From: Zygnema cylindricum
Lineage: Eukaryota > Streptophyta > Zygnematophyceae > Zygnematales > Zygnemataceae
NCBI GenBank assembly: GCA_037447655.1
Contig: JBBHKE010003005.1
Location: forward strand, 294,701-352,742
Direction: 5' to 3'
DNA length: 58,042 nucleotides
Shown: piece after piece, positions 3,872 through 40,463 of the stretch
Layout of the letters: every line of letters starts with the position of its first letter
How positions within the stretch are numbered: position 1 is the stretch's first letter
Made by a program: the position numbers and the translations under genes
The notes under the pieces: generated by a model
Seen by the model: only the letters and a program-made list of their open reading frames with translations
Database searches by the model: none
Told to the model about the DNA's origin: nothing

Positions 3872-3988
3872 TGTACAGTGTTCTGATTGGTTCGTACAGG
3901 CAGTAGATAGGGGTTGTGAGAGAGAACTAGGAAAAACTAGGACTTAGGAAAAATCGGGTAGATAGTCCTCTCTCTCTTTGAGAGTTTC

Positions 3989-4126: not shown

Positions 4127-4189
4127 TGGTTGCCATTGAAAGTGGGTTAGTTAGTAACTATCTAAAGGCTTTCTGTATTCTGTAGTCCA

Positions 4190-8200: not shown

Positions 8201-8496
8201 GGGTCAAGTCCTTGCTGCAAGAATTAGGGTATATAAAGGAGGGAGTGCATGAAGTGTTTTGTGATAATCAAGCGGCCATAGCAATTGCAGCCAATCGAAA
8301 ACATCATTTTAAGGCTAAACATATGGACAAAAGATTAAGTTTTGTAAGAGAAAAAGTGGAGAATAAAATAGTGAATCTTGTATATAGATCATATGAGGAA
8401 ATGGTGTCTGACATGATGACCAAACGTGTCCCCTCTCCAAAGCTAAAATGTTGTAGGGAAAAATGTGGATTAAAAGAAAAGTTAAAATTAGACTAG
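5271..8496 (+). pseudogene. copia-1 pol: protease, integrase, RT, RNase H (broken)
   Basis: Protease motif DSGAS near 5310. Integrase zinc-binding HKRLGH...CSGCA near 5708-5822, then DDE core with SDNGGEY near 6090 and a [13 protein letters not shown] glutamate block near 6180. RT with [10 protein letters not shown] near 7258 and YVDDLL near 7518. RNase H with TWSDASYGD near 8048 and DNQAAIAI near 8264. At least eight stops (for example near 5869, 5908, 6040, 6241, 6940, 7390 and 7666) plus frameshifts near 7755 and 8115. It ends with the conserved C-terminal block MVSDMMTKRVPSPKLK and a stop at about 8494. Confidence 0.9.
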
Positions 8497-8509
8497 AAAA
8501 TAAGGGGAG
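8497..8509 (+). other. Polypurine tract of copia-1
   Basis: AAAATAAGGGGAG directly abuts the 3' LTR TG, the expected position for plus-strand DNA priming. copia-2 (17436-17448) and the element at 34161-34173 have almost the same tract. Confidence 0.8.
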
Positions 8510-9555
8510 TGTTGAAATAAGTAGTTTTATTGTATTTTCTAGGTCTAAATTAATTAGCGGAAAACATATAAAGAAAATGTAGGCAGCGAATCTCCATCTC
8601 TTCTCTCTTGCCCCCATACTTGTTGTAATCACTAAAAGAGAGAGAGAGCGATGGAGCCATGGCTGCCTCATCTCCATAGGAAGGACTAAAGAGTGACTTA
8701 AGTCACTCTCAACAAAAGGTTGAGTCCAGCAGGACTTGAACCCCCGACCAGCAGAGCGCGGTGTAGCCGTTAGCTCTAACCAGTCTGTCGTAGAAGTCTG
8801 TTAGGAGATATAGGGTTTCATTAATATTTAAACTATCGTGTTATACAGAAATCATTTAATTGAGACTCTTTACGACACGCATAGATACAGTTTTACAAAA
8901 TACAAAGTACTGTACTAAATTGAAACGGATATTGCGCATTTTGTTTCGACAGCGAAACAAATATTTCGCAAGTATTTATCACGGCTGAGATTCTATTTCG
9001 CGTCAAATCTAACGGCGCACATCATCGTCGAAATCTCGGAATGGTCACTTTGGCATTTAGTACGTGGCATGACCTGGCGCCACGTGGAGAGATGATATTC
9101 GGTCGCGGGAATTCTGAGGAACGTACGGACGAGTGGAAAATGGACACGCGTTCGCCTAATGGCCTTGTCGTACAAAGGCCGTACAGAAACTACATCGGCA
9201 GTAGTACTTTCTGGTACTGTACAGTGTTCTGATTGGTTTGTACATGCAGTAGATAGGGGTTGTGAGAGAGAACTAGGAAAAACTAGGACTTAGGAAAAAT
9301 CGGGTAGATAGTCCTCTCTCTCTTTGAGAGTTTCTATAAATTGGCATCTTTGCCACCCTATAACTTATCGCCTGGTTGGGCGTTTTGAGAGATTTCCTTT
9401 TCTATGCACTCAAGGGAGTCGAGGTTGCACAGGGGGGCAATCACATTGTCTGCTTGTCTGCTTGTGTAGCAGTGGTTGCCATTGAAAGTGGGATAGTTAA
9501 TAACTATCTGGAGGCTTCTTGCAATCTGTAGTCCAATTGAGGACACAAAATTCCA
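8510..9555 (+). repeat. copia-1 3' LTR
   Basis: Partner of 3163-4209, ending TTCCA at 9555 with the TTCTA duplication following. Scattered substitutions against the 5' LTR (for example GTACAGAAACTAC at 9181 where the 5' copy keeps the full arm) show an old insertion. The palindromic GGCGCCACGTGG near 9077-9088 includes a G-box core CACGTG. Confidence 0.93.
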
Positions 9556-9560
9556 TTCTA

Positions 9561-12133
9561 GACCAACCGATCCCGAGGTACCTGGTTTGGGGATGGTTGA
9601 TCTCTCACGGGTGGTGAGTTGCACGCAAAAACTGGTGGATATCCTACGTGTTTGTTTTTGGAAACCTTTAGTCCTCTCTATATCACATTGTTATGCTGCC
9701 ATGCTGCGCTGGTCACACCGCAGACATAGCAGCATGTATAAAAAAGATATTGTGTTGCCATGCTGCGCTGGTCACATCGCAGCCATAGCTTCTTGCGTAA
9801 TAAGTACTAAGAGTATTGAACGTACGGAATTGGACTTCAAGTGACGCGAAGAAACATAGACAAAAGTGTTGAATGTGTTGGAGAAATGGACGGCAGATCG
9901 CGAAGCGATCCGATGATTAACATTCGAAATGATTTAAATTGTACGCCGGCCGTACGAAACATAATGCGGCGGTCAACATGTGATGAATTGGACGCCACCG
10001 GAGCTACGGACGGTAGCGCCGTCAGGTTGGTGAGGGACGCGAAATCGCGTCCATCACATGATATTTATTTTGGACGGTCTTGATTCATTTGACGGAATTT
10101 GTACGACGTGTAAATATTTAACAATGTTTTGTCCTGTGTATTAAATTATTAGTGTAGATCTCAGGTACACTCACATTAATAGAGGTAGTTGATTGATTAC
10201 GTACGGCTGGTATGCCTCCGTACAGGTAGTAGGAAGTTGTAGTGTATATTTGTAGGACTTAGTCATTACAAGACTTAGGAACTTTTTGGACAGAAACTGT
10301 TTCTGTTCATTTTTGGGAATTTCATCTGAGAATTACTCTCAATTTTATTGGCAAAATTATCTCGAATTTTGCATGTGTGTTCCTCCTTGTGTGGGCAATA
10401 TTGTGGCCAATTTGCAGACCTATTGTAAGTCTGATTTCCTTGGGGCTTCATTGTGAAGTTTGTTAGATTTATCAAAGTTCTGGCAATTTGTTTTTCTCCA
10501 ACTTTGACTGAGTGTTGTGATTAATCGGTTTGGTATTATTATATGAAATTTGGTGGGAATACTTAGTGGACTAGGAACTATCTAGTTTAGTAGTTTCAGC
10601 TTGGTTTGGTTTTTCTGTAGAATTCTGAGTGGAACCAAAGGAGGCTGTTTTGGGGTAGTCTGTGGTGCTTCCGAGGGTACATTCATGGTTGAAAAGGGCT
10701 ATGAACAACACTACGATCCCAGAGTCAGGCTACGCCGCGGGCTGGACCTGTCACCATAGATTGGGAGGCCCTAGAAGAAGAATGGAAGAGGGCCCTAAAA
10801 CAGGAATTGTTCTTCATCAGGGAAACTAGACGGATATCAGGGGGAATCATAAGTGGACAAGTATCTCCTCGTAGAGAGACAGGCCCCTCTACTGAGAGAC
10901 AACCTACCAGGCAGACTGCCCCTACTGAGACGCAAGCTCCGGGACTTCCTTGGAACGTAGACTAAAGTCCCCTCTTCAGCGGGAAGGGGGGGGAACAACG
11001 GGACCTAACAAACAGGAGATGGGTGCAAATATACCGGATAACGTTGCAGCCGCCACCACTGAGCGCCCTACTTTTGTCTCAGTGGTTGGGTCTTCAACTA
11101 CGAAGGCCGTGGTGTTATTACAACCCGACCGGAAACTATACATCTCCCTCGGACTTTCCACTCCTCCTCCATCACCACCTCGGGCATCTTCTCCTTGGCC
11201 ATCTGTTTCTCCTGCTGCTGCAGTTCGTGGGTCACCAGGCCCACCTGTCTTACCATACAAATACGACGTTCCTGCCTACTCCCCTCCTCACTGGCGTTCT
11301 CCCGCTTCCAACGAAGGAACTCCTCCTCCAGAGACCTCGAGAAGGCGTACCCGGAAACAGACACCTTTCCATTGTTGCCCTCAGTCATCTCCATCCACGT
11401 CTCCACCAATCCCTCAAGGACCACCGGTGATTAAACCACTCCTCGACATCCCATCGGTTAAAACAGCCCTCAAGGAGGAAAGGGCCTCTCCTGGTTATTC
11501 AAGAGCAGAATTTTGAACATCTTTTCCCAAGCTTAAAGTCTCATCTTTTCCCAAAGGCCAACCTAAGGGAGATACAGGTCCTCTCGCTAAATCACCAATA
11601 ACTGGAACTTCCTCAGTAGGGGGGGGGGTAGCTCTCGTCAGGCAGCTCCTTCAATCGGAGAAGGAGGCGGCTCCGAGCCACCCGACGCGGATCCAGGGGT
11701 CATTTCACTGGTTCAGTTTGTTAGCCCCACCAGACCATCCTCTTCCAAGTTCACCAACCTTTCTGAGGAGTAGAAAGAAATAGGGGACGCAACGATCTTT
11801 ACAGGAGATAGTTCGGGAATCGCTTTCTCGGATTTTGAATTGTTTTGGAAGTCGTTCACTCAATCCGAAAACAACAAATATATGGGCAGAGCCATTCCAG
11901 ATGACTTCGAAACCACGCTTTTCCCCATGATGGTAAATTATCTGGCTGGTGGTGCTTTAGCGGATTACAAGGAGCGACAACCTCTCTTGATGGCTCCCAG
12001 CATTAAAGTTTCAGACCCTGTCATTGATGAGGCAGTCTTACAGGTAGAATCAGACTTGGCTCCCGCTGCAGCCGCTCTTGTCACCGCTCTCTTCTCAGAG
12101 GACATGAAATTATAGGCACAAAGACGAGCCTAT
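9561..12133 (+). pseudogene. Gypsy gag, middle segment (split by the solo LTR)
   Basis: Gypsy sequence resumes at 9561-9648 and 10716-12133. A proline/serine-rich stretch is open at 10950-11516. The 11516-11780 stretch is frameshifted and contains a G homopolymer near 11618. A capsid-like domain reads from about 11780 (EIGDATIFTGD, then MFWKSFTQSENNKYMGRAIPDDFETTLFPM, given here only as positions 11840-11930). A stop at 12113 follows and the CCTAT target site at 12129-12133 is where copia-2 entered. Function assignment rests on position and on the continuation after 18419. Confidence 0.6.
9649..10710 (+). repeat. Solo LTR (type D copia) in gypsy gag
   Basis: Begins TGTTTG at 9649 and ends GAACAACA at 10710. 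CTACG at 9644-9648 is repeated at 10711-10715, so this is a solo LTR left by LTR-LTR recombination. It resembles, in opposite orientation, the LTRs of the tandem array (39434-40425), including the repeated ATGCTGCGCTGG hairpins near 9697 and 9758, the GATCGCGAAGCGATC stem-loop at 9896-9910 and the end of U5. Short ORFs within it (9587-10083) are not genes. Confidence 0.9.
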
Positions 12134-12684
12134 TGTTGAAAAGAGAGGTATTTTGTAGTCTTTCTTGTGGACTTACTGCAGCCCTCATACTTGTCGTAGT
12201 CACTGAGGGCTTGTTGACAACCATGGCAGCCTGCTGCAGCTAAAGGAGACAGGCAGATCATCCAGTACTGTTTTTCTGCAAAATATAACTGCCCCTTGTG
12301 GGACTTGATCCAGTGACCTCTGCATGATCACCGTACGGACTAGCCGCACACGATATTTATTTAAAGCTATACCGCGCCGGACATTTCATTTATCTAATTT
12401 CGGGACGATTTATGCATGGAAACATACCGGTCCGCACGAAATCGGGACCGCACGAAATATACAAATTAACATTTAATTTTCAACGGACGAAATCAAATGT
12501 TTAGATCTGATCGAACGGCTCACAGTGGAGCCGGAATGCCGGAATAGCCGTTTGACGGTTTGCAGACCAGATGTCGGTGGATGACACGTGGCAACATATG
12601 GTTGGGTAGCGGATATCACGGGAGGAGCAACTACGGCTCCAGAACTGATACGCGTCAGCGTAACGGCCATGTCGTACTATGGCC

Positions 12685-12721
12685 GTACAAGAAGTACAGC
12701 GGTACCTGTACCTTCTTGTAC
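12685..12721 (+). promoter_or_regulatory. U3 inverted repeat of copia-2
   Basis: GTACAAGAAGTAC (12685-12697) pairs with GTACCTTCTTGTAC (12708-12721). Relative to copia-1 both arms have changed together (AGAAAG with CTTTCT in copia-1, AAGAAG with CTTCTT here), which keeps the stem. Confidence 0.55.
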
Positions 12722-12827
12722 TTTACAGTCTTATGATTGGTCGAAGTACCTTAGTAGTAGGCTTAGAGAGGTAGCTTAGGACTTAGAATATTTTTGGTTT
12801 TCCAGCCTCTCTCCCAGAGTGCACTTG

Positions 12828-12966
12828 TATTTATAGACCAACTTTGGTCAGCCATAACTTAATGCTCAGGTGAGCAAATTCAGTGATTCTTTTTGCTGCG
12901 GACTCAGGGGAGTCCAGGCTACACATGGGTGTAGTTGGTCAGAGATTTTGCGTCCCAGGGTGGGAC
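12828..12966 (+). promoter_or_regulatory. TATA box and stem-loop leader of copia-2
   Basis: TATTTATA at 12828-12835, then GACCA/TGGTC with loop ACTT (12836-12849), TGCTC/GAGCA with loop AGGT (12863-12876), GACTC/GAGTC with loop AGGG (12901-12914), CTACAC/GTGTAG with loop ATGG (12919-12934) and GTCCC/GGGAC with loop AGGGT (12952-12966). All five stems are perfect and four differ from copia-1 by paired changes. Confidence 0.65.
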
Positions 12967-13039
12967 TTATTCATTGTCAAAGTCAAAAGTGCATATACTA
13001 TCCTAGAGGCTTCACATAAGCTGGACATTCTGTGTACCA

Positions 13040-13973
13040 ATGGAGGTCACAGAATTACAGGTTATGGGCCCACCCTCTAGGGTGCCCATTTTCAATGGAA
13101 CAGGGTTTATTTATTGGGAAATTATGATGAGGGGTGCATTGTTTGAAAAAATGCTTTGGGGCATTGTGAGTGGTCGTGTGCGACGGCCATCTGCAAAATT
13201 GGGAGTTTAACTGGGGTTTGGAGGATCTTGGTTCACAATAGGATCTGCGAGGGCAGAGGAGGTAGAGGATGTGGGAGAAAGCATCGTGTCGGACTTAGGG
13301 AAGGAGAAGGGGAAGGAGAAACTCACACCGATGCCTACTGGATCGGTTCCGTTAGTAGATATTCAGAAAACCGAGGCTAATGATAGTGAAATCTGGGATT
13401 TCAACAATACGCTGGCGACTCATTTTATTCTCGGGCGTCTCACCCAGGCAGTGGCTACACCTCATCTTCAGGTTGACAAGGCAAACGAGTTGTGGGAGGC
13501 TCTTGTCAACATTTATAAGAATGGTACGATTCAGCCACAGGCTGGCTGATCAGAAGGTACAAGCATATGTATACAAAGGGGGAAAGATGTTAGATTTTTG
13601 TAATGACTTGGCTGGGTTATTTATGGAGTTGGAGAGTGCGAGGAAAAGGGAAACCGAGAAAGAGAAGGTAAATACTTTGTTGATGAAACTCCCTGATTAT
13701 TATGAAAACATTGTTAACAGGGTTCAAGACTTGCCAGATCATCGATGGATCTGGAACTCCGTTGTGGGAATGATTTTGGTTCGGGAAAGCAAAATTGAGA
13801 TTCGGAGAGGGGGAAAGAGTGTTCAAGCATTGGCAGCTGGTACTAACTAGGGGGATAAGGATTCCAAGAAACCTAATGGGAATTTTGGTGGAGGAGGAAG
13901 AGGAAACCATGACGGATCTAGACCAAGGGCTCCGAAGGGGCTTTGCCATTTTTGTAAGAAGCTGGGAAACTAC
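13040..13973 (+). pseudogene. copia-2 gag (one stop, frameshifts)
   Basis: Start ATG at 13040, 20 nt before the LTR end (MEVTELQVMGPPSRVPIFNG). A stop near 13207 and a frame change near 13540 break it. Later blocks include LTQAVATPHLQVDKANELWE and KVNTLLMKLPDYYENIVNRV. The zinc knuckle near 13943 is degenerate: CHFCKKLGNYMAES keeps the first two cysteines but has lost the histidine and last cysteine of CX2CX4HX4C. It joins the pol frame at 13974. Confidence 0.85.
13060..13074 (+). other. Primer-binding site of copia-2
   Basis: GGTTATGGGCCCACC is a perfect 15-nt complement to the anticodon arm of plant initiator tRNA-Met (GGTGGGCCCATAACC). It starts one base after the LTR end and encodes Gag residues VMGPP in frame. 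Confidence 0.85.
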
Positions 13974-16900
13974 ATGGCGGAGAGCACTAAGTTGACGGGG
14001 TTAAGATTGAAGGAGGAATCGATTGGAAAACCGGCCGGAAGGAAAAAGAAGGCATTTGTTGCGACACAAGTCGTGGGAGAGGATTCCGATGATGACGATG
14101 GAGAACTTCTCCTCGACGAGGAGTTGGAGGTGAAAGGTGAGCCAGAGATTCCAAGGAGGCAAAAGTGTGCTTTCGGTGGAGTGAAAGAAGCTCCTGAAGA
14201 AGGATGGATCATTGATTCAGGAGCCTCTATGCATATGTGTAGAGAAAAACCATTGTTTACCAAAATGAGAAAGATCCCTACTGTAGAGATAGAGTATGGG
14301 GATGGGAGGATAGTGACCACTAATTCAGTGGGATCAGTAGATTTGAGGGTCCTAGTTGATGGAAAGACATCTATAGTCACTTTCTCTGATGTTCTTTTTA
14401 TTCCAGAGCTGAACAAAAATCTTATCTCTACGTCGGTCTTAGATGATAAGGGCTTTGAGACTAGTACTAAGAAAGGAGTCTTCGTTGCTAGCTATGAGAA
14501 TGAAGTGTACTTCACAGCTGAAAAGGGTAGCCAAGGAATGTTTAGGTTGAATTTGAGTAATGGAAAGACGGGAGTTTACTATGCGGGTGTAAGTGATTTG
14601 ATGATGTGGCATAAAAGATTGGGACATGTGCATCTAGATAGATTGAAGGAAATGAAGAAAACGGGTGTAGTTGAGGGCATACATTTTGGAGATAATGAGA
14701 CTTTGGATGATTGTAGTGGGTGTGCTCAAGGAAAGGCCCACAGATTGCCTTTTCCAAAAGCCGCAACATATAAGGGTGAAAAGGTTTTAGATTTGGTTCA
14801 CACTGACATATGGGGACCGGCTAAAGTGCCATCAGTTGGAGGAAAAATATTTATGCTTACTATCACTAATGATTGGTCTAGATACTCTAGAGTATATTTC
14901 TTGAAAAACAAATCTGAGGCTTCGGCTTACTTTAAAGAATATAAATCATGGAGTGAAACGCTTCATGAGACACCTATAAAGAGAGTGAGAAGTGATAATG
15001 GGGGGGAATTCACTTCTAATGAATTTGAGGATTACTTGAAAGAGGAAGGGGTTCAACACCAAAAGACCGTCCCAAAGAATCCAGAACAAAATGGTGTAGC
15101 CGAGAGACTAAATCGGACATTAAGTGATAGTGTCCGTAGCATGTTGACAGATAAAAAGATAAGGAAAAGCTTTTGAGCAAAAGCCATGAATTGTGCTAAC
15201 TATCTCAAAAATAGAGTCCTTACCTCAGCTGTAAAAGGTCAAACACCCTATGAAAGATGGACCGGGAGAAAATCTAACATATCACACTTAAAGGTGTTAG
15301 GAAGTCAAGTGTTTAGCTTAAACACAGAAAAATCTGATTGGAAGTTAGATGCTAAAGGAAAGTCAGGATACTTACTTTGGTATGATGAGAACGTAAAAGG
15401 GTATAGAGTTTATGATCTCGGAAGAGAAGATATAATTCTAGTGAAACACTTGGTAGTTATGGATGAAGGAAAATCCATATATCCCTTTAAGTACACTAAA
15501 CCGGTCAGAATTAGAATTAAATCCGAAAGTGAGTTAGATTCAGATTCTACTAACCGAACTCCGGTTCAGCCTGACTTTGCAGAGAGAGAAGAAAAACTGA
15601 CCAAGAGTGATCCTCTCTTAGAGTCACAACATCCTGTTCAAACCAAGGAAGAAAACGAAGAAAGACTGGAAATGGACGATGAACGTCCAAAGATGGACTC
15701 CACGGATAGGGGAGAAGGCGAAGTTGTTCGGAGAAACCCAAGATTACCCTCTATTCCAGCATCGGAGTTTGAAGGAGGAAGGAGAAGCAACAAGAGACTT
15801 CAAGAGAGACAAGTGAACAACAAGGTAACTAAGCTATCACATTTAAATGAACCTCAGACTTACTCAGATGCGGTTAATAGTCCGGAAAGTAGTAGATGGG
15901 TGACAGCTATTAATGATGAGATGGCTACCATTATGGAAGCAAACACTTGGGAGTTGGTGGATTGTCCTCCGGATAGAAAGCCAATAGGATGCAAGTGGGT
16001 ATTTAAGTTGAAGCTCAATCCAGATAACACTATCGAGCGATACAAGGCCAGATTAGTGGCAAAGGGGTTCACACAGAAGGAGGGAATCGATTATGAGGAG
16101 ACCTTTGCTCCGGCTGTTAGATTCCCCTCCGTCCGGATTTTACTGAGTCTCGCGGCAGCGGTGGACATGGAAGTGTACCAGATGGACATCAAAACTGCTT
16201 TCTTACACGGAGAATTGGAAGAAGAGATTTTCTTGAGACAACCGGAAGGATTTGTGGAGAAAGGAGAAGAAAGCAAGGTGTGTAGATTGATAAAGTCCCT
16301 TATTGGACTAAAACAAGCTCCTCGCCAGTGGAACAAAAAACTGGACGAGTTTTTGACGAATTTGGGATATATCCGCATCAGTTCGAATCATTCGATATAC
16401 TTATTTGAGGATGAAGAAGGTATAATTTTCATTGACATATATGTTGATGATCTGCTTGTGTTAAGTAAATCAATGGTGAAAATTAATAGATTGAAAAAGG
16501 ATCTAAAGAGTAGATTTGAAATGAAAGATTTGGGGGAGGCAAAGTACATATTCGGAATTCAAATGGAGAGGGATAGAGAAATGAAGATTATTAGACTAAC
16601 TCAAAAGGAAGCAATTGGGAATATGCTTGAAAAATTTCAAATGGAAAAAGCAAATAGCTCTACAACTCCAATGGACTTGAACAAGGGAAATGAGGGGAGC
16701 TCAGAAGAGGGAGTCTTCATTTTGGATGATGAGCTAGGACTTGAGGAGAGCAAGTTCATGCAAACTATTCCGTACATACAGGTTGTCGGTAGTTTGATCT
16801 ACTTTATGAACTGTACTCGTCCTGATATAGCTACAGCTGTAGGAGTATTAAGTAGGAGTCTGAATGATCCTAGAAAAAAAGATTGGGAAGCGGCCAAAAG

Positions 16901-17435
16901 GGTCATGCGATATTTGGTAGGAACTAGAGATTTGTGGTTCCATCTGGGAGGGGATAATACTGACATCACAACTTGGAGTGATGCCAGTTATGGGGATGCT
17001 CCGATGAGGAGGTGTACTTCTGGGTATGTGTTGTATGTTGGGAATGGAGCTTGCAGTTGGAGCAGTAAGCAACAAAAGGTCATTGATCAGTCCACCATGG
17101 AGGCTGAGTATATGGCCTTTTGTTCAGCTTTGAAAGAGTTAATGTGGGTGAAGTCTTTGCTTCAAGAATTGGGATACATGAAGAATGGAGTACAAAAGAT
17201 ATTTTGTGACAATCAAGCTGCGATTGCAATTGCGGCGAACCCTAAACATCATTTTAAAGCAAAACACATGGATATTCGTTTGAGCTTTGTTAGGGAGAAA
17301 GAAGAGTATAAAATTATTAGTTTGGAATATAGACCAGATGGTGAGATGGTAGCAGATATGATGACTAAACCGATCCCTTCTCCTAAATTGATATTTTGTA
17401 GGGAGAAGTGTGGACTGACGCAAAAGATAGACTAG
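13974..17435 (+). pseudogene. copia-2 pol: protease, integrase, RT, RNase H, one nonsense codon
   Basis: One frame throughout. Protease DSGAS at 14214. Integrase HHCC (HKRLGHVH ... CSGCAQGKAH, 14607-14740), DDE core with HTDIWGP, SDNGGEF near 14993 and [13 protein letters not shown] near 15080. A TGA at about 15175 replaces the Trp codon found in copia-1 (RFWAEAMN). RT resumes in the same frame: [10 protein letters not shown] near 16182, YVDDLL near 16440. RNase H: TWSDASYGD near 16972, STMEAEYM, DNQAAIAIA near 17210, ending MVADMMTKPIPSPKL. Apart from that stop all catalytic blocks appear intact, so the element may be recently active. Confidence 0.93.
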
Positions 17436-17448
17436 AAAATAAAGGGAG
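17436..17448 (+). other. Polypurine tract of copia-2
   Basis: AAAATAAAGGGAG, right after the pol stop and directly before the 3' LTR. Confidence 0.8.
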
Positions 17449-18418
17449 TGTTGAAAAGAGAGGTATTGTGTAGTCCTTCTTGTGGACTAACTGCAGCCCT
17501 CATACTTGTCGTAGTCACTGAGGACCTGCAGACAGCCATGACTGCTTGCTACAGCTAAAGGAGACAGGCAGATCATCCGGTACAGATTTTTTGCAAAATA
17601 TAACTGCCCCTTGTGGGACTTGATCCAGTGACCTCTGCGTGATCACCGTACGGACTAGCCGCGTGCCTTATCCGGTAAGTCTTGAAGAAATCGCTAAATG
17701 AATATGGCGCGATATTTATTTAAAGCTATACCGCGCCGGACATTTCATTTAACTAATTACGGGAGGATTTATGCATGGAAACATACCGGTCCGCACGAAA
17801 TCAGGACCGCACGAAATATACGAATTAACATTTAATTTTCGACGGACGAAATCAAATGTTTAGATCTGATCGAACGGCTCACAGTGGAGCCGGAATGCCG
17901 GAATAGCCGTTTGACGGTTTGCGGACCAGATGTCGGTGGATGACACGTGGCAACATATGGTTGGGTAACGGATATCACGGGAGGATCAACTACGACTCCG
18001 GAACTGACACGCGTCAGCGGAACGGCCATGCCGTACTATGGCCGTACAAGAAGTACACTGGTACCTATACCTTCTTGTACTTTACAGTCTTATGATTGGT
18101 CAAAGTAACTTAGTAGTAGGCTTAGAGAGGTAGCTTACGACTTAGAATATTTTTGGTTTTCTAGCCTCTCTCCCAAAGTGCACTTGTATTTATAAACCAA
18201 CTTTGGTCAGCCATAACTTAATGCTTAGGTAAGCAAATTCAGTGATTCTTTTTGCTTCGGACTCAGAGGAGTCCAAGCTACATAAGGGTGTAGTTGGTCA
18301 GAGTTTTTGCGTTCCAGGGTGGGACTTATTCATTGTCAAAGTCAAAAGTGCATATACTATCCTAGAGGCTTCACATAAGCTGGACATTTTGTGTACCAAT
18401 AGAGGTCACAAAATTACA
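17449..18418 (+). repeat. copia-2 3' LTR
   Basis: Partner of 12134-13059, longer by about 44 bp near 17662-17706. It ends AAAATTACA at 18418, followed by the CCTAT duplication and then gypsy gag sequence. Confidence 0.94.
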
Positions 18419-18423
18419 CCTAT

Positions 18424-19480
18424 GTTGCTCAGTTTCAGGCCATTCAGGCTGCCAGAGCAGCCACTCGGATGGTTTCAGACCCAACCCCCTGTACAACCCT
18501 TTTGAATGCCTGGAGACTCCTTTACACTGAAAGGAATGAATCTGTTATCAAGGAATTTACGGAATTCCGTTGCCAAAAGAGTGAAACTCCCCAAACTCTT
18601 TTTAACAGATTGTCCATCCTTTGTCAAAAGACCAAACTCTCAACCATAGACCTCCCGACAATGGCAACCAAATACTTCATCGCAGTCCGAAATTCGTTTG
18701 GACCCACGGGGCAGGCAGCCCTCGATAATTGGATTGCGCGACAGGCTATCTAGGACGTCAATCCAACCGCCAAGGAAATCTCTCTGACCGCAATGAAGCT
18801 TTATGATCACTTCGTCCACAGAGAGGCTCAAGAAAAAGCGATAACAGGAAAAACACAGGGGAACTTTGCATGATTCACCGGAGAAATGCCTTCTGAAAAT
18901 GAGGAGCCGGCTGAACTCTTAGCATTGCGGAAGCTGAAAGGGAAACAGGTGGCGGATAGCGGATCCGAACCCGCCATGGGAGCCGATGAGCGAGTCTTCC
19001 TATATAACAGTTTGAACTATCAACAAACAGGTCATGGATGGAAGTGCTGCCCCTGAAAGCTCAAACCGGAATTAGCCATTAAACAGAAGGAATGGGAGTC
19101 GGAGAGAGCTGAAAGGACAAAGAGGCAGCAAGAAAGGAAACAACGAGGAGGGTCAGACGATAAAACTCCGGTTAACAAAGAAAATTATCAGCCGACTCCA
19201 CGATCTGAGACTGCAAAGATGTCGCAAGCCCAGTTGCGACAGATAAAACTTCCAAAATTCGATGACGCGCAAATCTCCAACGAATTGAGGGGCAAATATA
19301 TTACGGAGGGCTCCAAGTGTGAGGCTTGCGGTTTCATGGGTCATAAGGAAGGGTAGTGTTTCCGAAAGAATGGAGTCCCAAAAGAGATGATGCAATATGC
19401 ACAGTTCACCAGAGAAGGTGAAACTGCCGTGAATCCTCTCCCGCTGCAACTTCTCTACCCATGGGCGCCACACCCTGAAG
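18424..19480 (+). pseudogene. Gypsy gag, capsid C-terminal part and CCHC nucleocapsid
   Basis: Continues the capsid interrupted by copia-2. The retrotransposon-gag type core reads ...LLNAWRLLYTERNES... and CQKSETPQTLFNRLSILCQK at about 18490-18640, typical of Ty3/gypsy Gag. Stops near 18751 and 18871 interrupt it. A CX2CX4HX4C zinc knuckle (CEACGFMGHKEG, a stop, then C) lies near 19320-19362. The knuckle would bind element RNA. Long charged segments between the two domains are probably coiled coil. Confidence 0.8.
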
Positions 19481-20499
19481 ATCCGTGAACGACAGCCAAC
19501 AAGTCAAGCCCGACTAACCCCGGAGGTTATCATCCAACAGCATATCTAGCAGATGGCAGCCATGGCTGCAGAATTGGTAGCACTACGATAACGATCGCCC
19601 TCCAAAACTCTAGCTTTGACGGCCGCCCATAAACTCCACCGGAGAAAACAAGAATTATTACAGAAGCTGGCGGATCTTTAACAAGAAACCGCAACGGGCG
19701 AAGACGATGATGAGGTGATGGGGTGGGACATGGAACCCCCTAAGGCACATCACGCACAGACCATCCTTTTTGGAGCTTGGAATGTCGATGTGGGGGACAA
19801 TAGAAGGCAGCTCTGTAACTCAACCTTGGCGCAGAGAAGAGACAGACAAAAGCTCCCTATAGGAGACCACAACAGGAACGCTACTGGATCTCTGTCCTTC
19901 ACCCCCAGGGCCGTCATCCTGAACGACAAAATAGGTCTCGGGATAAAATCTACAAACCCACCTCCACCAGTCGCAAAGAAACTGCCTCCGTATTCAAAAA
20001 TTATAGGACAACTAAAACAAGGAAGATGGAGGAACAAGCAAAGGAGGAAGAAACGCGTGATAACCAAGACTGGTTTGAAAAATATTTGGCGGAACGCCCG
20101 GAGGATAACACGCCAGAAACGCTGCCAGCGCCAGAATCCGACCAAAAAAGTGAGGAAGCAGAGGGGTGGGGGAAGGAAAATCATCAACCGGAGGAATCAA
20201 CAGATTCCCCCATTTCGTCGCCAAAAATTCAACCTCTTTCCTCCAAACCTGCAGTGATGTTAGTTAGGCATCTAATGCCCTACGCTCTCACTCACGTGAA
20301 AACACCGGCCTCTTCCCATAACTTGCCGGAGGAAGTTCTCATCCAAGCCCTCGGAGAGGAAATCCATTCAAGAGGGGAAAAACACCGGGCCGATAAAGCC
20401 AGATCCGTGTTTTGGTCAGCCGACCTAAAGACACCTCTGAACGATAGGGACTACAAAACGTTACCTAGGGCGCTAATCCTCAACCGGACGGGAATTTTC
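19481..20499 (+). pseudogene. Gypsy gag-pol linker, acidic and proline-rich
   Basis: Open frames at 19715-20030 and, after a frame change, 20026-20526. The product is Lys/Arg- then Glu/Pro-rich, without a recognisable domain, leading directly into the protease. Multiple stops at 19480-19700. I cannot assign a function beyond a linker. Confidence 0.5.
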
Positions 20500-20998
20500 A
20501 AACTCAACGGATACGGCGGGTATTAGGACGCAGTTGTCGATACAGGAGCACTCCCAAATCTAATCACCACATCGGCTCTGCAGCAAATGCCTGAAGAACT
20601 CCGACCATAAATCTTCCCCAGTGACGTCCGCCTAAGTACTATTAGCACTAGGAGCCAACCCGTACACGGAATAATTAAAGCTATGTTAATCAAGTTCGCC
20701 GATGACGCAGGTCAAAAGGTCCGAATTCAGCTTCCCTTCGTGGTGGTGGAAGGTAAGCAGTTTGAACTTTTATTGGGAATAGCCACCTGGACAAGGGTGA
20801 ATATGGGATTAAGTGTGTGGAAATAGGAGTTTACTCTTCGGGATCCTGAGGATCCAAAAGGGGTCAAGGTGGTGGTTCCCCTGGATCTATGGAATAGGGG
20901 GACAAATAATACTCCCGTCGTCGGATGTTATTCCGTCTATGCCACCCACACACCCAGAGAACTGCTCGCTAGCCCTACCGATATCGCGGACATAATAT
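20500..20998 (+). pseudogene. Gypsy aspartic protease
   Basis: The active-site block reads DAVVDTGALPNLIT starting near 20530 (DTG with Ala, as in pepsin-like retroviral proteases), preceded by a stop at 20524. The C-terminal FELLLGIATWTRVNMG near 20761-20808 corresponds to the LLG flap-end block of gypsy proteases. Stops near 20608 and 20824. Its role would be polyprotein cleavage. Confidence 0.78.
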
Positions 20999-21075
20999 AG
21001 CAATTCCCTATTTCCAAGCGGTGGGAAGAGGGATACCAGAACAGATTATTACAGATAACAAAACTTCGGCAGGAA

Positions 21076-22155
21076 GTGGACAAATCCTTAATAGTTGTTT
21101 TTGTAAAGGAAAAAGAACCTCAGTTGGAATCTTCGGGAGTTCCGTCTGACAATCAAAAATTCAATCGACAAGTGGTTTCATTATCTATCCCAGATTCTGG
21201 ACTCCGCATATTATCCCTATTTTTTGGAATTAGCTCGGATCTCGAAGCTGTCGTGAAAGCTGGGTATAAAGTGGAGTCCTATGTGGCCATGGAAATTTCA
21301 CTAGATGCTCGGGCCGTCAATGAATACCGACTAGAACAACTCCACCAATTGTATCCCCAGCAACTTCTTGTATCCGCCATCTGCAGATCTCACCGAAGTG
21401 TCCCGCAAAATATAGACAACATCCTGAAGCCTCATCTCGCTATGCTGGAGCGAGTACATTTGGTGATTGCAGGATCGCCATGTCAAGGATACTCTCTAGT
21501 AGGGAAAGGCGAGGGACATCGAACAGCAGAAGTCGAACCTTCTTCTAGATGATCAAATTAATTTTCTAGAAGACAAACCAGTGGGGTGCGTTTTGGAGAA
21601 TGTCAACCCGGAGATGATAAGAGAAAACAAGTCGCCAATAGCTGGAATAAAGTCAAGCAGATTCTAGGAGCTCCACTTGTTTTCAATGTAGCACAACTGG
21701 GATCCAGGGCTCACAGAGTTTGAGCGTACTGGACCAATTTAATACCTTTGTTAGTCCTGAACTAGCTCTTACAGAACAACAAAACTGATCCCTAGATTAC
21801 CCTCCAACAAATTTTAGGGCCAAGGCGGATGGCCACTCCAGTAATAAAGGCTGATCATCCTCCGTTTTTCCAGTGCAACCAACCAGGAGCACCACGGCGA
21901 GCACTGCCAACATTGGCTTCCTTCCCAAATAGCCATGCATATCGAAAAAGAGCGGCCGGAATGATATTTGGCAGCGACACTGGGGTGTGGACAGTGCCAA
22001 CGGTGGAAGAACGAGAATAAGCCATAGGATTCCAGCCTGCCAGCACAGCGGCACCAGGTATTTTAGACCTCCAGCGGTGCAGTGTACTCGGACAGAGCAT
22101 GGATCTAAATGCAATAACATGGGTGATAAAACATTCTCTGGCCTTCTCTAGCCTA
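21076..22155 (+). pseudogene. Cytosine-5 DNA methyltransferase domain, DNMT3-like, embedded in gypsy pol
   Basis: Transfers methyl from S-adenosylmethionine to cytosine C5. Motifs appear in the canonical order: motif I LRILSLFFGISSDLEAVV (21202 on), the motif II acidic residue in YVAMEIS (near 21290), motif IV SPCQGYS with catalytic Cys codon at 21481, motif VI LENV at 21594 in another frame, a motif VIII-like SRAHRV...YWTNL near 21703, and a C-terminal block ALPTLASFPNSHAYR, then EERE...AIGFQ, then LGQSMDLNAITW near 22100. That order excludes the permuted plant DRM type. The SRAHR block and the motif I wording point to DNMT3-like. Frameshifts near 21525 and 21610-21680 and stops inactivate this copy. 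It lies between protease and RT, in the same orientation, with no separate promoter seen, so it was part of the polyprotein. Confidence 0.88.
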
Positions 22156-22472
22156 TAGTCCCGGAAATCAAGGGCTAGCTACCTTCAAGCTCTAAAGTTG
22201 TTAGCGGTGCAGGCCCACTTGCAGCTTGAGAGGGGGAGGGAGGCAAGAAAACAGTTTTTATCATCAAAATTTTCCAGTCCCAGCATTTTACCGCAATTAA
22301 GGGATTCCTCACTAGGGGGGAGCGCAGGCTCGAAAGGGAACAGCTTAGCGGAAGTTGTTAGCAACAACATTCTGACGGGAGGAGAAGAGGTAGACCCGTA
22401 GGAAGGGTTGGAATTCGATATCTCCCGCTGGGGTAGACCCCGGAGGCATGGGCAGCGGTTGAACCCGGAAAG

Positions 22473-24044
22473 ATGGATTGGACCTTAAGGGAGCAGTTGG
22501 ACCCTCAGCAAAAGGCCCGGCTCTCCGACCTGTTGGTGAAGAACAAACAGGTGTTCTCCTGGTCAGAAACCAACGTAGGCATCTACAAAGGAACCCCTTT
22601 TCGAATCGATTTAATAGACGAGACGTCTACTGTTTGGCAGAAGCAGTACCCTCTCAGTTTCAACGAAAAAGAGTTCATCACAGCAAAGGTACAAACTCTG
22701 GTAGAAGCAGGATTGGTGCATGAAAGTACCGGACTCTATGGATTTGCGTCTCTAACCGTTCTCCCACCCAAGAAGGACTCTTTTGGGAAAACGGTAGACT
22801 TTCGGATGTGTGGAGACTACCGGATGCTTAACACGGCAACTGTACCCGACCGATACCGAATGCCTACCTCGGAAGAGATTTTTGACTCGCTGGCCCGAGC
22901 CACCATTTACACCACCCTATACATGAAAAATGGGTTCCACCAGATCGCGATGGAGCAAAATCACCGGGAAAGGATAACATTTTGGGCAGGGTCCAGCATG
23001 TATGAATGGCTCTACATGCCATTCGGGCTGAAGAATGCGCCAGCCAAATTCCAACGTGCCATGGACCAGGCGCTCCGGCGGATTGACTGTGCACGGTGCT
23101 ATATGGACGATGTTATTATCTTGTCGAAGACCTTCGAGAAACACTTGGAGCACATACAGATTGTACTCCGAGCTCTCCAACCAGCGGGCTTGAAATGTCA
23201 CCCGGGTAAGGGAATTTTTGGGGTGCAGAAAATTATTTTCCTGGGACACGAAGTTACACCCGAGACACTGGATCCCCATATAGTCAAAGTGGTAGCCCTT
23301 GATGCCCTTCCCCCTCCTCAGGACGTCTCTGCACTCCGCACATTTTTAGGCCTGGCTAACTATTATCGGAGATTCATCCCTATGTTTAGCAGCCACGCTC
23401 AGCCTCTGAACCACTTGCTGCGGAAGGACCAAGAGTGGTAGTGGACGGAGGAGCAACAGATTGCCTTCCAATTCCTTAACGATTCCCTGAAGCAACATCC
23501 AGTGCTCCGAATGCCTGATCAACAAAGACCTTTCCTCCTATACATTAATTGAAGCCGCTTTGGATTGGGAGTTGTTTTAGCCCAACTAGATGATGCTGGG
23601 GCCGAATATGTGGTAGCTTATGCCAGTAGGAGTAATAACCGAGAGGAGGGGAATTACAGCAGCAATCACAAGGAATTACTGGCGGCAGTATGGGCCACCC
23701 AACACTTCAGACCATACCTATACGGATTCCGTTTCACTCTGATTACGGATCACCAACCTCTCAAGTGGATTATAGAGAACAGCAAGCTCACTGGAAAGCT
23801 CGCCAGGTGGGTGTTAATACTGCAGGAATATGACTTCGACATAATCCACCAGGCCGGAGAGATTCATGGGAATGCCGACGGACTTAGCAGAAATCCTGAC
23901 CCTTCCACTAGAGATTCCACCGGGGCCCGCCATGATGAGGATCCTGAAATCAGTTTGGGACTCATTCGAGCTTCCTCTGCCTTTATTTGGCTTCCTCAAT
24001 CTGGGGGGGAAATGTCAACTTTCTCTGTAGACGTGGAGGGGTAG
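22473..24044 (+). pseudogene. Gypsy reverse transcriptase and RNase H
   Basis: RT open from 22473 to 23441: PYPLSFNEKE-like N-terminus, LVEAGLVHESTG, FRMCGDYRMLN, MPFGLKNAPAKFQRAMD, YMDDVIILS (near 23101), IFLGHEVTPE, FLGLANYYRRFI. The first catalytic aspartate is replaced: LYMKNGFHQI where LDMKNGFHQI is expected (near 22917). A TAG at 23439 then leads to RNase H: the first acidic residue block is lost (IN, stop, SRFG near 23545), but NYSSNHKELLA, YLYGFRFTLITDHQPLKW and HGNADGLSR are clear. RT length and motifs are ordinary for Ty3/gypsy. Confidence 0.92.
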
Positions 24045-24099: not shown

Positions 24100-25124
24100 C
24101 TATCCAACAAGGTTCCCCTCTTCCCTATTTTTCTGGAGTGAAGTTATCACGCGTTCTCACTCGAATGACGGCATATGAATGGGAAAGGGGTATTTTAATC
24201 CACAAGTGGGCAGACAAGACGAGGAAAGTGGTTCCTCCCCGGCTGACCGAAGACTCTGGTTTTTCGTCTTCACCAGCAATGTGGCCATTTTGGGCAAAAA
24301 CGGACTACCTCCTTGGTCACCGGATCGTACTGCTGGCACGGGTTGCAGACCCAAGTTAACCGGATTGTGCAGACGTGTTCTTCTTGTGACCGAGTCAAAG
24401 CGGCCTCCGACAAAAAAGGAGTTGCCCAGCTTCATTCACTTCCAATCCGAGGAATGTTTTATCGGTGGTCTTTGGATCTGCTGGGCCCTCTCCCCACTAG
24501 CAGACGAGGAAACCGCTTTGTCCTGGTGATGATAGAGCATTTTTCTAAGTGGATCAAATTGGTGGTCTTACCCCGGAAGGAGTCTAAGGCGATTGCGGAC
24601 GTATTGTTCTAGAGAGTGATGTCCCAATTTGGGGCCCCTGCAGAAGTGTTGACCGACCAGGCCTCCAAATTTGCGGGAGAGTTCTCCAACTTGTTGGAAT
24701 TATGTCTAATCGACCACCGGCTCACCAGCCGAGACCACCCCTAGGCCGACGGTTTGGTCGAAAGGTGCGTACAGACAGTGAAGCGGTCACTACGCAAATA
24801 TGCTATGGAAGAGGATTTGGGAAAATGGGATAGAAAGGTGCCTTGGATTGCCATGGGTTACCGGTTCAGCTAGCAAGCATCCCTCCACACCTAGAGTCCA
24901 TATTTCATTCTGTTCTGACGACACCCAATCCTACCCGGCGCAGCCTCCGCCCAAGCTGTGGTCCTTCCGGAAATGGACAATAAGGGGACGGTCGAGAAAC
25001 TGATTGCAGATAGGGCCAAGTTGTTTCACCGAGAAATGCCTCTGGCCATGGGAAATTTACAAGCAGCCCAGCACCGAGATCAACTCTGGTATTCGCAACG
25101 CCGTAGCGAGAATTTCGGCGATTT
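24100..25124 (+). pseudogene. Gypsy integrase, zinc and DDE core (broken)
   Basis: HHCC domain split by a frame change: GHR near 24317 and QTCSSCDRVK near 24371. Core: SLDLLGPLPTSRRGNRFVLVMIEHFSKW (Asp near 24475), LTDQASKFAGEF (Asp near 24652) and ADGLVERCVQTVKRSL (Glu near 24760). Stops near 24610 and 24742 and frameshifts near 24870 and 25120. Arrangement is normal for gypsy elements. Confidence 0.88.
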
Positions 25125-25514
25125 CTTCCCGGGGATTTCGTGTACCGCATGCAACAAAAAAAGGACACTCTGGACATTTCAGCGGGAAGGGTGATTTTGA
25201 AAGTAGTGGAAGTCTCTAATAAAGGTGTCTTAACACTTGAAGGGAAGGATGGGCGGAGGATCGAGGAAAATCAGATCAATGGGGCTCCTTGTCACATCCA
25301 GGGATTGAAAGACGAACCTACTTTTCACCTTACCTATTTTGCTGATCCCCCTTTGTGTTCCTCCGACTGCCTCTCGTCTTCATCCCAGAATATTGTACTG
25401 GTCTGTGATCGATGCAACCAGTGTTGGCATTGGTCTTGTCTCCCCTCCTCTTGGGACCCTCGTCATAAACCCTCGGCACTCTGGTTCTGCGGGAACTGCG
25501 AATTAGGGGGGTAA
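25125..25514 (+). pseudogene. Integrase C-terminal domain fused to a PHD finger
   Basis: From FPGDFVYRMQQKKD (25125) the frame is open to 25514. The GDFVYR start, then GRVILKVVEVSN and RRIEENQINGAP fit the SH3-like integrase C-terminal domain. At 25356-25502 follows a Cys4-His-Cys3 pattern: Cys73, Cys77, Cys89, Cys92, His97, Cys100, Cys117, Cys120 (numbered from 25140), with the aromatic WFC just before the seventh ligand, as in PHD fingers. PHD fingers usually read histone H3 tails. Gypsy integrases more often carry a chromodomain here, and none is visible. All ligands are intact although upstream domains are broken. Confidence 0.8.
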
Positions 25515-25544
25515 TTATTTGAAAGTCTTTGTCACAGTTGACTA

Positions 25545-25557
25545 AGAGGGGGGGAAA
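25545..25557 (+). other. Polypurine tract of the gypsy element
   Basis: AGAGGGGGGGAAA directly before the LTR start TGAAGG at 25558, 30 bp after the PHD-encoding frame ends. Confidence 0.75.
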
Positions 25558-27009
25558 TGAAGGACCCAGCTCCACCTCTAAGGATTCCCTCTTTTCCCCC
25601 GGCCAGGGTGAGGAAGGAGAGGGGGAGGGGATATCTTTTCGCCCTCCCTAAAGCACTTATCCCCACGTTTGCATGCATGCTCACGGGAACAAGGCGGGCA
25701 GCATTAGGCATCGGCATTGTTGTGGGGAGCATTGATATTCTGGGGAAGGTTGATTGCAAAACTCCAATGCCATTTACCCAGGCAGTGGGCCCTCCTCTGG
25801 TGATTTCCGGCACGCTCGACAGATGTCTAGCTCGTGTGCTTCACAGGCACCCTTTTTATCTTATCAAGGATTTCTGGACCTTCTTCCTCTATGCGGCTCT
25901 TCAAGTACGGGTAAAGGAGCGCACCCAGCCAAAACAGATTCTTCTATTTTCTTAACTGAGCGGAACGCACTTTATTTCTCGCCTAACGGAGGCCTGACAA
26001 CGAAGTTAATCTGTTCCAAATATCATCATCCTGTTACATGCGACCTTTTTCCACTTGTCCCTTTGGGGCCTACATTGTGGAGTACCACGTAACTTTTGGG
26101 ATAGTCTATTAGATTTTGCTGTTGGCTATTTGTAGAACGTTACTTCAGGTCCACCAGCCGGGTAGAGCATTTACTAATGAGAGTCAAAGCTAGGCGTTTC
26201 ATGTCAATTTAGAACTTTGGTGCTCAAAATTGTGTTATACAAACACACGTGGCTTCTAATCTAGCAGGAGATAGTCGCCTAACTTTTTGCCTTGAGTGTC
26301 GTACAACCTGTTTTGTCTTATGTCCGAACAATAACCATTCCCGACCGTTGATTGGCTCTTGGTATTGTTTTGACTTTGGCACTGTCGGTAGGACAAAACT
26401 TTGCTTGTATAAGCACTAGGGGCTGAAGGAGACAGGTTGTTGTTTCAGTACTGTCTCCTGAGAAAAACCCTAGAAATTCTAGCAAACTTTTTTGTGGAGA
26501 ACTTTTGTTTTGTATGTGATTATGACCCTATTGCCATCTTGGTTTTCATCCGTCCTTTGTGGAAATCGTAGTCCGGTTTGGTGGTTGGCACTGTCTCTCC
26601 TGTTTGGGCGATTTGTGGACAGGTGGTTGTTGGAAACCAAGAAGGGTCTTGCTGGTTCCGGGTCGCGGAAACCGAGGAGTTAAGGAGGCCTTACCTGTTC
26701 CGGGGTTTTCGTGGGGAGATTTCGTCTCCTTTTGTTGTCCGCGTTACGTTTTGGGGGTAGGTTGAACCCGCTTGCTATTCCTCCATATTTTATCTTTATT
26801 CTCTATTTTTCTAAAGGCAATCTAATATTGTTAAAATCTGAAACACCATTTATATATTTCTATCCTTTCATTATTCTGAGTGGGAGTATCTTGGTTCTCT
26901 CTTTGGTAGTCCTTTTGGGGCTTCGGTTGGGTCCCTTCCGGGGTCGATTACCAGAATCTTTTCTACCAGAATAGTGGATTTTGAGAGGATTCTAGTTAGA
27001 CTTTCAACA
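25558..27009 (+). repeat. Gypsy 3' LTR (complete)
   Basis: Starts TGAAGGACCC after the polypurine tract and ends TTTCAACA at 27009. About 1452 bp. From 25829 on it aligns with 1007-2190. It fixes the full LTR length and shows that the 5' copy has lost about 270 bp. The ORF-like stretches (25557-25955, 26492-26974) are not conserved as proteins between LTRs. Confidence 0.9.
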
Positions 27010-27806
27010 GACTGAAGCAGGTTCCCCGACAACGGAATAAGAAACTAGATGAGTTTCTCACTGGTCTGGGATATATCCAGATTAGCTCTGAGCATTCTAT
27101 CTCTATGTTTGAAGATGAGAATGGTGTGATATTTATTGCAATTTATGTGGATGATCTGCTGGTGATAAGTAAGTCTTTAGAAAAGATCAATTAGTTAAAG
27201 AAAGATCTTAGAAGCAGATTTGACATGAAAGATTTAGAGGATGCAAGATTTATTTTGGGAATCCAAATGGGGAGAGATAGGGGGAAAAGGATCATTAGAC
27301 TTACTCAGAAAGAAGCAATAGGTAATATGCTTCAAAAATTCCAAATGGAAAATGCAAACAGTTTTACCACTCCCATGGACTTGAAGAAAGTAAGTGATGG
27401 AAGTGTAGAAGGAGGAGTGATAATCTTAAATGATCAAATTTGTCCAAAAGAAAGAGAGAGTTTAAGAAGTCTATTCCTTACACGCATGTTATAGGAAGTC
27501 TACTATACTTTATGAACTATACCAAGCCTGACATAGCGGCAACGGTTGGAGTCCTCAATAGGCGTCTAAAGGATCCTAAGAAGAGAGATTGGGAGGCGCC
27601 CAAGAGAGTCATGAGATATTTGGTGGGAACAATAGAGTTATAGTTGCATTTGGGAGGGAAGCTCACTAACATCACTACTTGGAGTGATGCCTGTAATGGG
27701 GATGCATCTATGAGAAGATGCAATTCTGGGTATATTTTGAATGTGAGGGAACGTGCTTGCTGTTGGAGCAGTAAGTAACATAAGGTGGTTGCTCAGTCTA
27801 CTAGGG
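27010..27806 (+). pseudogene. Copia RT/RNase H fragment, left part of a split element
   Basis: Begins inside the RT at GLKQAP-equivalent sequence, YVDDLL near 27145, TTPMDLKKVSDGS near 27370, TWSDAC near 27680, ending at QSTxE. It is very similar to 253-1006. It continues at 31063 after a minus-strand insertion. Stops near 27192 and 27493 and frameshifts. Confidence 0.88.
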
Positions 27807-40440: not shown

Positions 40441-40463
40441 AGTTTCGTGCACCCAGAAAAATA

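Follow-up and report, generated by a model that had tools for sequence, protein, structure and literature searches.

A DNMT3-like methyltransferase as a lasting domain of Ty3/gypsy retrotransposons in Zygnema cylindricum, with relatives in green algae and a liverwort

We analyzed a stretch of 58,042 nucleotides of the Zygnema cylindricum genome (contig JBBHKE010003005.1, positions 294,701 to 352,742, hereafter the window), whose plus strand carries a Ty3/gypsy retrotransposon, in an old copy that is now dead. The DNMT3-like cytosine methyltransferase (DNMT) found in this copy is almost certainly borne by the element and inherited with it, as a lasting part of its family, and the relatives of this family in green algae and in a liverwort carry the DNMT in more forms than we found described. 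The principle of such a capture is already known, as stated in an earlier note made from the sequence of the window. Indeed, gypsy elements of Klebsormidium nitens contain a Dnmt3 in their Pol open reading frame (de Mendoza et al. 2018, PMC5890265). In the part of this paper that we consulted, KnitGypsy-Dnmt3 is described with a Ka/Ks below 0.2 and with a DIRS-like arrangement of the repeats around gypsy domains (legend of Figure 4); retrotransposon DNMTs are reported there to methylate CG de novo, and a self-methylation of the cDNA is proposed. In the sections consulted of two further papers, DNMT-bearing retrotransposons of streptophytes and dinoflagellates are named (a 2025 paper, PMC12344493), and gypsy and DIRS elements carrying adenine or cytosine methylases are, taken together, attributed to hosts including green algae and charophytes and said to be lacking in land plants such as tracheophytes (a 2019 review, PMC6338049).

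The gypsy copy of the window lies on the plus strand between two long direct repeats. The left one, A1 (1005..2193), is 93.1% identical over 1190 columns to 25826-27012, i.e., to the right one, A2 (25824..27012), and some of its length aligns with the A repeat in L025, a copy of this family whose frame is intact. Co-linear BLAST matches between the window and L025 extend from 1265 to 26659, with copia elements filling the gaps, since later copia insertions have split the gypsy copy. The 5' internal region (leader and gag, 2194..19986) is co-linear with L025 in the same comparison and survives in pieces between these insertions (about 2194-2931, 2985-3160, 9556-9648, 10711-12133, and 18434-19986). 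The copia-like sequence itself occupies 3160-9556, 9648-10711, and 12133-18434; the direct repeats of the insertion at about 12.35-18.32 kb are 96% identical, and an in-frame stop lies in it at 15174. Downstream lies the aspartic protease (PR, 20527..20823, with DTG at 20539), which is broken by stops and was recognized by translation and by the same block in intact-frame relatives, the piece 20611-20820 giving no Pfam match. After the DNMT come the reverse transcriptase (RT, 22437..23441; PF00078 (RVT_1), E 1.3e-24), the RNase H (23553..24044; PF17917, E 4e-31), and an integrase broken by stops (24247..25106), made of an H2C2 zinc part (PF17921, E 1e-11) and an rve core (PF00665, E 0.037 on the first open piece, below cut-off). 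A PHD finger (25368..25499; PF00628, E 5.5e-5, 23.6 bits for a cut-off of 24) forms the C-terminus of pol, the stop of which is located at 25512. All these domains, also on the plus strand, are found in the expected order by Pfam, and by translation for PR. We consider the copy dead because of its stops and frame changes: there are seven stops in the frame 21001-22180, covering the DNMT region, and five in the integrase frame, and the reading frame of the DNMT shifts around its ENV block. A copia-like stretch of 745 bp borders the element on both sides (260-1003 and 27015-27757, 92.3% identical), adjoining the start of A1 and the end of A2, at the place of the missing B2 repeat; its two copies have diverged about as much as A1 and A2, and one reading that we offer for the pair is an odd, long target duplication or a repair scar. 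Elsewhere in the window, at 39434-47948, a unit of 3,656 bp is repeated three times head-to-tail (98-100% identical), with a partial fourth copy near 49000.

The domain that the earlier note had placed between PR and RT, in the orientation of the element, is indeed a DNMT3-like C5 cytosine methyltransferase, as seen from its translation, from its matches to L025 and to L021 (a copy of a distant family), and from PDB matches to DNMT3A. Its extent had been given as 21076-22155, which does contain the domain and is slightly too wide, the translation and the alignment to L021 and L025 giving about 21175..22143 on the plus strand. In this translation, we recognized motif I (RILSLFFGISSDLEAV), the catalytic AGSPCQGYS, the ENV-type block (one frame over), SRAHR, and a C-terminal block, which we take to be motifs I-IV-VI-VIII-IX/X. 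They follow each other in the canonical, unpermuted order that had been announced, and the rearranged (permuted) motif order of DRM methyltransferases was not found in the element DNMT. L025 is 58% identical in amino acids to 21001-22440 of the window (E 2.75e-155), compared with 85% in RT-RNase H and 85-87% from RT to integrase, and L021 is 34% identical to the DNMT part (E 9.6e-46). The PF00145 profile match is weak on the unbroken first DNMT piece of the window (E 0.0085, 16 bits for a cut-off of 22) and clear in L025 (8.2e-13) and in L021 (2e-11). The best PDB sequence matches are DNMT3A, with an E-value of 1.1e-14 when a single copy is the query and of 1.7e-21 when a 14-row profile is used; in this profile search, DNMT3A stands far above the tRNA enzyme DNMT2 (1.7e-6). 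Profile scores are nearly tied between DNMT3A (79.1 bits) and a Bradyrhizobium enzyme (77.7 bits), the bacterial rows having been chosen by the element motif. A structure was also predicted, using a 13-row alignment, for P0045, a relative of what we call type II below (mean pLDDT 64.6, mostly above 80 in the DNMT part). Among the best 50 fold-search rows, this model reaches target TM-scores of up to 0.85 with DNMT3A/B structures, and the methyltransferases returned are DNMT3; TM-scores with retroviral and Ty3 integrases are low (0.3-0.4).

A search of the genome (352.8 Mb) for other copies, of the kind suggested by the earlier note, gave 123 scored PF00145 (DNA_methylase) matches of 782 candidates, some of them in open frames of up to 2395 aa. 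At no fewer than 29 of the 120 RT places related to the window, a scored DNMT lies directly upstream on the same strand, at a gap of 632-1216 bases, and this number is a lower bound because only 123 of the 782 DNMT candidates were scored. At these 120 places, no scored DNMT was found downstream or on the opposite strand within 3.5 kb. We examined 20 stretches of 10 kb from the scored matches, a non-random sample chosen mostly for long frames: 12 are near L021 (family A), six are near L025 (family B), and two (L032 and L038) are distant relatives of B. By the identity of its pol to L025, the window element belongs with family B. L021 is a single open frame of 2395 aa, encoding Gag-PR-DNMT-RT-RH-INT-PHD. 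From RT to integrase, it is about 43-49% identical to the window, and the shared architecture is thus old. Its A repeats (931 bp) are 100% identical, which indicates a recent move; those of L027 and L030 are 99.6% and 99.5% identical. The best solved relative of the L021 RT-RH is Ty3 (E 2.3e-80). L021 and L025 both contain PF00665 (rve) and PF17921, and a Pfam search for a tyrosine recombinase gave no phage-integrase match in either. The PR-RT-RNase H-integrase order of Ty3/gypsy is found in the window pieces, in L021, and in L025, and the PHD finger closes the same pol in all three by Pfam order, as had been proposed for the window. The idea that DNMT and PHD share one polyprotein stands as far as pol is concerned but needs correction upstream, since PR and DNMT are in separate ORFs in family B, on either side of a conserved UAG.

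We also compared dN/dS among copies, another of the tests put forward for this DNA. The results indicate purifying selection on the DNMT, with medians below 1 in both families: 0.121 in family A (4 pairs in the usable dS range, 8 copies) and 0.236 in family B (14 pairs, 7 copies), the remaining pairs, out of range or dS-saturated, being left out. The DNMT codons are less constrained than those of RT, for which the medians are 0.072 (A, 5 pairs) and 0.117 (B, 10 pairs). For the PHD finger, the values are 0.093 in family A (2 pairs) and 0.508 in family B (6 pairs), the latter pointing to a weak constraint. CpG depletion, taken as a possible footprint of methylation, showed nothing distinctive, with observed/expected ratios of 0.69 in the window pol, 0.64 in the L025 pol, 0.55 in the window copia, and 0.88 in L021. 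In the stretch joining L025 to its flanks (L043-L045), a 3.7-kb segment (12734-16449) lies between two 331-bp copies of the 3' end of pol plus B, which are 97.9% identical.

The repeats at the ends of these elements are split and are not plain LTRs. The six complete family A copies read A1 - internal - B1 - GC - A2 - B2, a DIRS-like arrangement. Such split repeats (A1 ... B1-GC-A2-B2) are present in L021, L023, L025, L027, L028, L030, and L039, and were not seen in L031 and L037, which have A ... B alone as far as they were read. The palindrome GACAGCTGTC is found at the B1-A2 joint in L021, L022, L023, L025, L027, L028, L030, L032, L035, and L039. In the window, B1 (25555..25821, plus strand) ends in GACA and is followed by GA and by A2, so that the junction reads GACAGATGTC, and there is no B2 after A2. 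Directly 5' of B1 lies the purine tract AAGAGGGGGGG (25544..25554, plus strand), a polypurine-tract candidate, and both L021 and L025 have a G-rich tract in this position. Four of the six complete family A copies (L021, L027, L028, and L030) are flanked by a perfect 4-bp target duplication, the flanks of L023 and L039 match at three of four bases, and no matching flanking duplication was found for L025, L031, and L037. This organization fits a DDE integrase cutting at the palindrome and dropping the GC, perhaps in circular DNA.

Protein searches extended the family to other green lineages. They gathered at least 175 proteins, the third search having scored 7980 candidates, from which the best 120 of 1786 matches were taken; some gene models of these relatives may be chimeric or cut. 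With L021 and L025 included, 92 rows among the proteins listed contain a DNMT stretch of 240 residues or more, i.e., 26 of type I, with the DNMT before RT, 65 of type II, with the DNMT between RNase H and integrase (six of them without RT in the piece), and one undecided. The named hosts of type I are K. nitens (P0057), Closterium (P0070, P0113, P0119, and P0149, with P0061 and P0132 as shorter pieces), and Marchantia polymorpha (P0116 and P0133); those of type II are Haematococcus lacustris (P0011), Chromochloris zofingiensis (P0056, named from its source label), and Chlamydomonas reinhardtii (P0157). The DNMT is absent from the pieces examined of P0103 and P0131 in K. nitens and of P0115 and P0129 in Closterium. 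Among the proteins listed whose C-terminal part beyond the integrase exceeds 120 aa, a PHD finger is found in 56 of 57 of type II versus 5 of 13 of type I, the other 8 of 13 lacking it despite their long C-end. By PF00628, the finger is clear in L021 (1.5e-9) and weak in L025 (17.5 bits, below cut-off).

The simplest reading of our trees is a single capture of the DNMT, followed by a single move within pol. In the RT-RNase H tree (115 of 147 RT rows kept, plus Ty3), a single clade of 99 rows gathers all DNMT carriers and is separated from the 17 remaining gypsy rows, Ty3 among them (SH-aLRT 100, on a short branch and by a quick method). Within this clade, type II is monophyletic (99; 51 rows, among them P0031, a type II protein, and two PHD-only rows) and type I is paraphyletic. 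A smaller and more careful RT-RNase H tree, which had just two outgroup rows, likewise separates type II from the rest by a single branch (99/97). For the DNMT itself, the outgroups were matches filed under viral contigs (82 confirmed, 80 kept) and under genome contigs (57), used as filed. The larger DNMT tree was built with the best 30 bacterial and viral rows, after 12 proteins (fragments or near copies) and two near-copy bacterial loci had been dropped; it sets the elements and DNMT3A apart from the 30 bacterial or viral-contig rows (100/100) and nests type II in type I. In the same tree, holding types I and II together without L128 is not rejected (p-AU 0.26). One of the outgroup matches, L128 (42% identity), belongs to the clade of the elements in the larger DNMT tree; its contig is assigned to a cyanobacterial MAG, probably through eukaryotic contamination. 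Two separate captures of cellular DNMT3 genes, one giving PR-DNMT-RT and the other RH-DNMT-INT, are the most serious alternative, which we consider unlikely without dismissing it. They are suggested by the smaller DNMT tree (built from 22 of the 26 proteins of type I and 17 of the 65 of type II, without bacterial rows), where one branch splits types I and II (100/100). DNMT3A, the sole cellular DNMT3 available, is mammalian, enters the trees as pieces on a long branch, and is unstable, being placed outside the elements in the larger tree and inside type I in the smaller one. However, the RT tree unites both types together with the PHD-only ORFs, the nesting of type II in type I argues in the same direction, and most of the 14 aligned rows, from both types, share blocks that are missing from DNMT3A, e.g., W[PE]CQ[GD]xSxAG and TAAPG. 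Of the 147 RT rows, before thinning, 39 are ORFs with RT and PHD and no DNMT. We rejected their interpretation as DNMT losses as unsafe, because L128 has its DNMT in a first ORF and its RT in a second one, across a UAG, and P0081 looks like a second (RT) ORF of this kind.

As to the role of the domain, motif IV with its cysteine was recognized by pattern in 84 of the 92 DNMT rows and the pattern is missing in eight (among the proteins listed). The C. reinhardtii protein P0157 (CHLRE_09g398141v5) and its sister P0160 have the DNMT domain in long frames without motif IV, and catalysis is therefore not always kept. These exceptions lend some weight to the idea that the domain is kept not for DNA methylation but for a non-catalytic or RNA-directed role, such as particle structure, nucleic-acid binding, or methylation of tRNA or other RNA; in the part of PMC5890265 that we consulted, the authors likewise consider methylation of RNA in the case of their LINE. 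Such a role seems improbable to us, given the large majority of rows with the motif IV cysteine and the distance between DNMT3A and DNMT2 in the PDB profile search.

The boundary between PR and DNMT is the place of another conserved feature. In the window, a UAG stands at 20998..21000 on the plus strand, in the context ATA TAG CAATTCCC, and is presumed leaky. The stop at 20524, just before PR, was also considered as the conserved one and set aside as a decay stop of the window copy. At this boundary in family B, 23 rows, six of which repeat a place already counted, represent 17 distinct alignable places, several near copies of one another among them; 16 of the places have TAG and one has TAA. 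The next codon is CAA at 15 of the 17 places, and 14 read TAG CAATTC. These places include subfamilies whose surrounding protein has no more than 35-37% identity to L025; an ungapped comparison of L025 with L003 gives 61% identity over 36 bases at the stop, versus 25% and 33% beside it. CARYYA is the motif 3' of the leaky stop of tobacco mosaic virus (PMC4132726, consulted in part). UAG CAA UUC resembles it, with a mismatch at the last base. In L128, UAG CAA UCA (3282-3284 for the stop) matches CARYYA fully; this stop closes a long DNMT-containing frame, and the frame that follows it in phase continues to RT. P0002 and P0003, close relatives of L128, carry PR upstream of the DNMT and stop where the DNMT frame of L128 does. 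As the UAG precedes the DNMT in family B and follows it in L128, the DNMT can adjoin a presumed leaky stop on either side. L021, of family A, has no UAG between PR and DNMT, and readthrough is thus not general. We think, from these alignments, that the family B UAG is probably a leaky stop. An old mutation, or a reassigned code in which TAG means Gln, would account for the Gln codon that usually follows the family B UAG and for the other in-frame TAGs often held by decayed copies, and has in our opinion little probability. Reassignment is ruled out by two native frames, 2395 and 1520 aa long, which contain no internal TAG, so that TAG is not an ordinary Gln codon; moreover, TAG CAATTC recurs at the 14 places across such divergent subfamilies, and the related L128 has its UAG CAA UCA at another boundary. 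Finally, the weakest alternative, that a host exon or some unrelated insertion fell by chance between PR and RT in the window copy alone, found no supporting point and is scarcely credible, being ruled out by the same order in L021 and L025, by the collinear matches in other copies as far as they reach, by the same order in proteins of other green lineages, and by the 29 RT places with an adjacent DNMT.

With the family B UAG read as a leaky stop, the life of the element could be as follows. Gag-PR ends at the UAG, with a 3' context resembling the leaky type of plant viruses, and the DNMT is the first domain after it, ahead of RT, RNase H, integrase, and PHD. A minority of ribosomes would read through the UAG; on this assumption, the DNMT would be made and packaged at the Pol level, with RT and integrase. 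It could then methylate CpG in the element's own cDNA or in a fresh insertion, and the PHD finger could touch histone tails and help to place the integrase. We find this reading, taken as a whole (lasting DNMT, UAG readthrough, Pol-level packaging, methylation of the own cDNA or insertion, and chromatin contact by PHD), fairly likely. Among its parts, a PHD finger acting as a chromatin tether has about an even chance, and that the DNMT methylates the element's own cDNA, as the earlier note and the 2018 authors had suggested, is a tentative proposal with a chance falling just short of even.

Comparison with known systems helps to situate these elements. KnitGypsy-Dnmt3 is the nearest, with an unpermuted Dnmt3-type DNMT in a gypsy Pol, purifying selection, and DIRS-like split repeats. 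The insertion point between PR and RT, which the earlier note had thought possibly new, is apparently known as well: K. nitens P0057 (KFL_009030040), albeit a partial model, already reads PR-DNMT-RT-RH-INT, with the same PR-DNMT-RT order as the window, and the part consulted of PMC5890265 puts Dnmt3 in the gypsy Pol ORF. The Zygnema pol may differ in ending with a PHD finger and differs, in family B, by the UAG between PR and DNMT; in the consulted text of PMC5890265, the terms PHD and protease are absent, and stop codon appears once, about mutated copies. SymbioDIRS-Dnmt3 of Symbiodinium, as far as the same text describes it, is similar in having a DNMT3 inside a retrotransposon Pol and two coexisting domain orders, but it is a DIRS element with a tyrosine recombinase, whereas the Zygnema elements have a DDE (rve) integrase and, in family A, 4-bp duplications. 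The chlorophyte type II elements (P0011 in Haematococcus, P0056 in Chromochloris, and P0157 in Chlamydomonas) have homologous RT, DNMT, integrase, and PHD, and P0011 and P0157 share one RT clade with type I; they differ from the window by the DNMT between RNase H and integrase and, for the Chlamydomonas protein, by the loss of motif IV. Chromoviruses are Ty3/gypsy elements with a chromatin-binding module, the chromodomain, after the integrase. L021, L025, and P0001 have a PHD finger there instead, and Pfam gave no chromodomain match in L021, L025, P0001, or P0052. One gypsy polyprotein of H. lacustris, P0114, has both a chromodomain and a PHD finger among its precomputed domains. Cellular DNMT3 proteins with an ADD domain combine a methyltransferase with a PHD-like histone reader, whereas in the elements writer and reader are located at opposite ends of a retroviral-type Pol. 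Among open-licence PubMed Central papers, we recognized by title or abstract no report of PHD-bearing or chlorophyte DNMT gypsy elements. Nor did we find in print a conserved UAG of the leaky type beside a DNMT (UAG CAA UUC or UAG CAA UCA), the two DNMT positions (before RT and between RNase H and integrase), or 4-bp duplications around DIRS-like split repeats.

Why a transposon should carry the silencing mark of its host has been an open question since 2018. A broader scenario, which we hold to be rather doubtful, would be a single DNMT3 capture early in the green lineage, carried since in chlorophytes, streptophyte algae, and liverworts, with one move in pol from between PR and RT to between RNase H and integrase, and with the stop on either side giving a DNMT at the Gag or at the Pol level; PHD and DNMT would there rebuild the logic of ADD plus methyltransferase, the same histone contact placing the integrase and licensing methylation of the new copy. 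Should this lineage indeed be common to chlorophytes and a liverwort, the DNMT cargo would not be a local oddity of Klebsormidium. The type I proteins of Marchantia qualify the absence from land plants stated in the consulted part of the 2019 review (PMC6338049). Copies whose native frames are long and whose repeats are identical, the coexistence of two families in the same genome, and the two positions taken by the domain as well as by the stop together constitute a natural experiment, which bears on the Gag versus Pol dose of the enzyme and on the mark on the cDNA.
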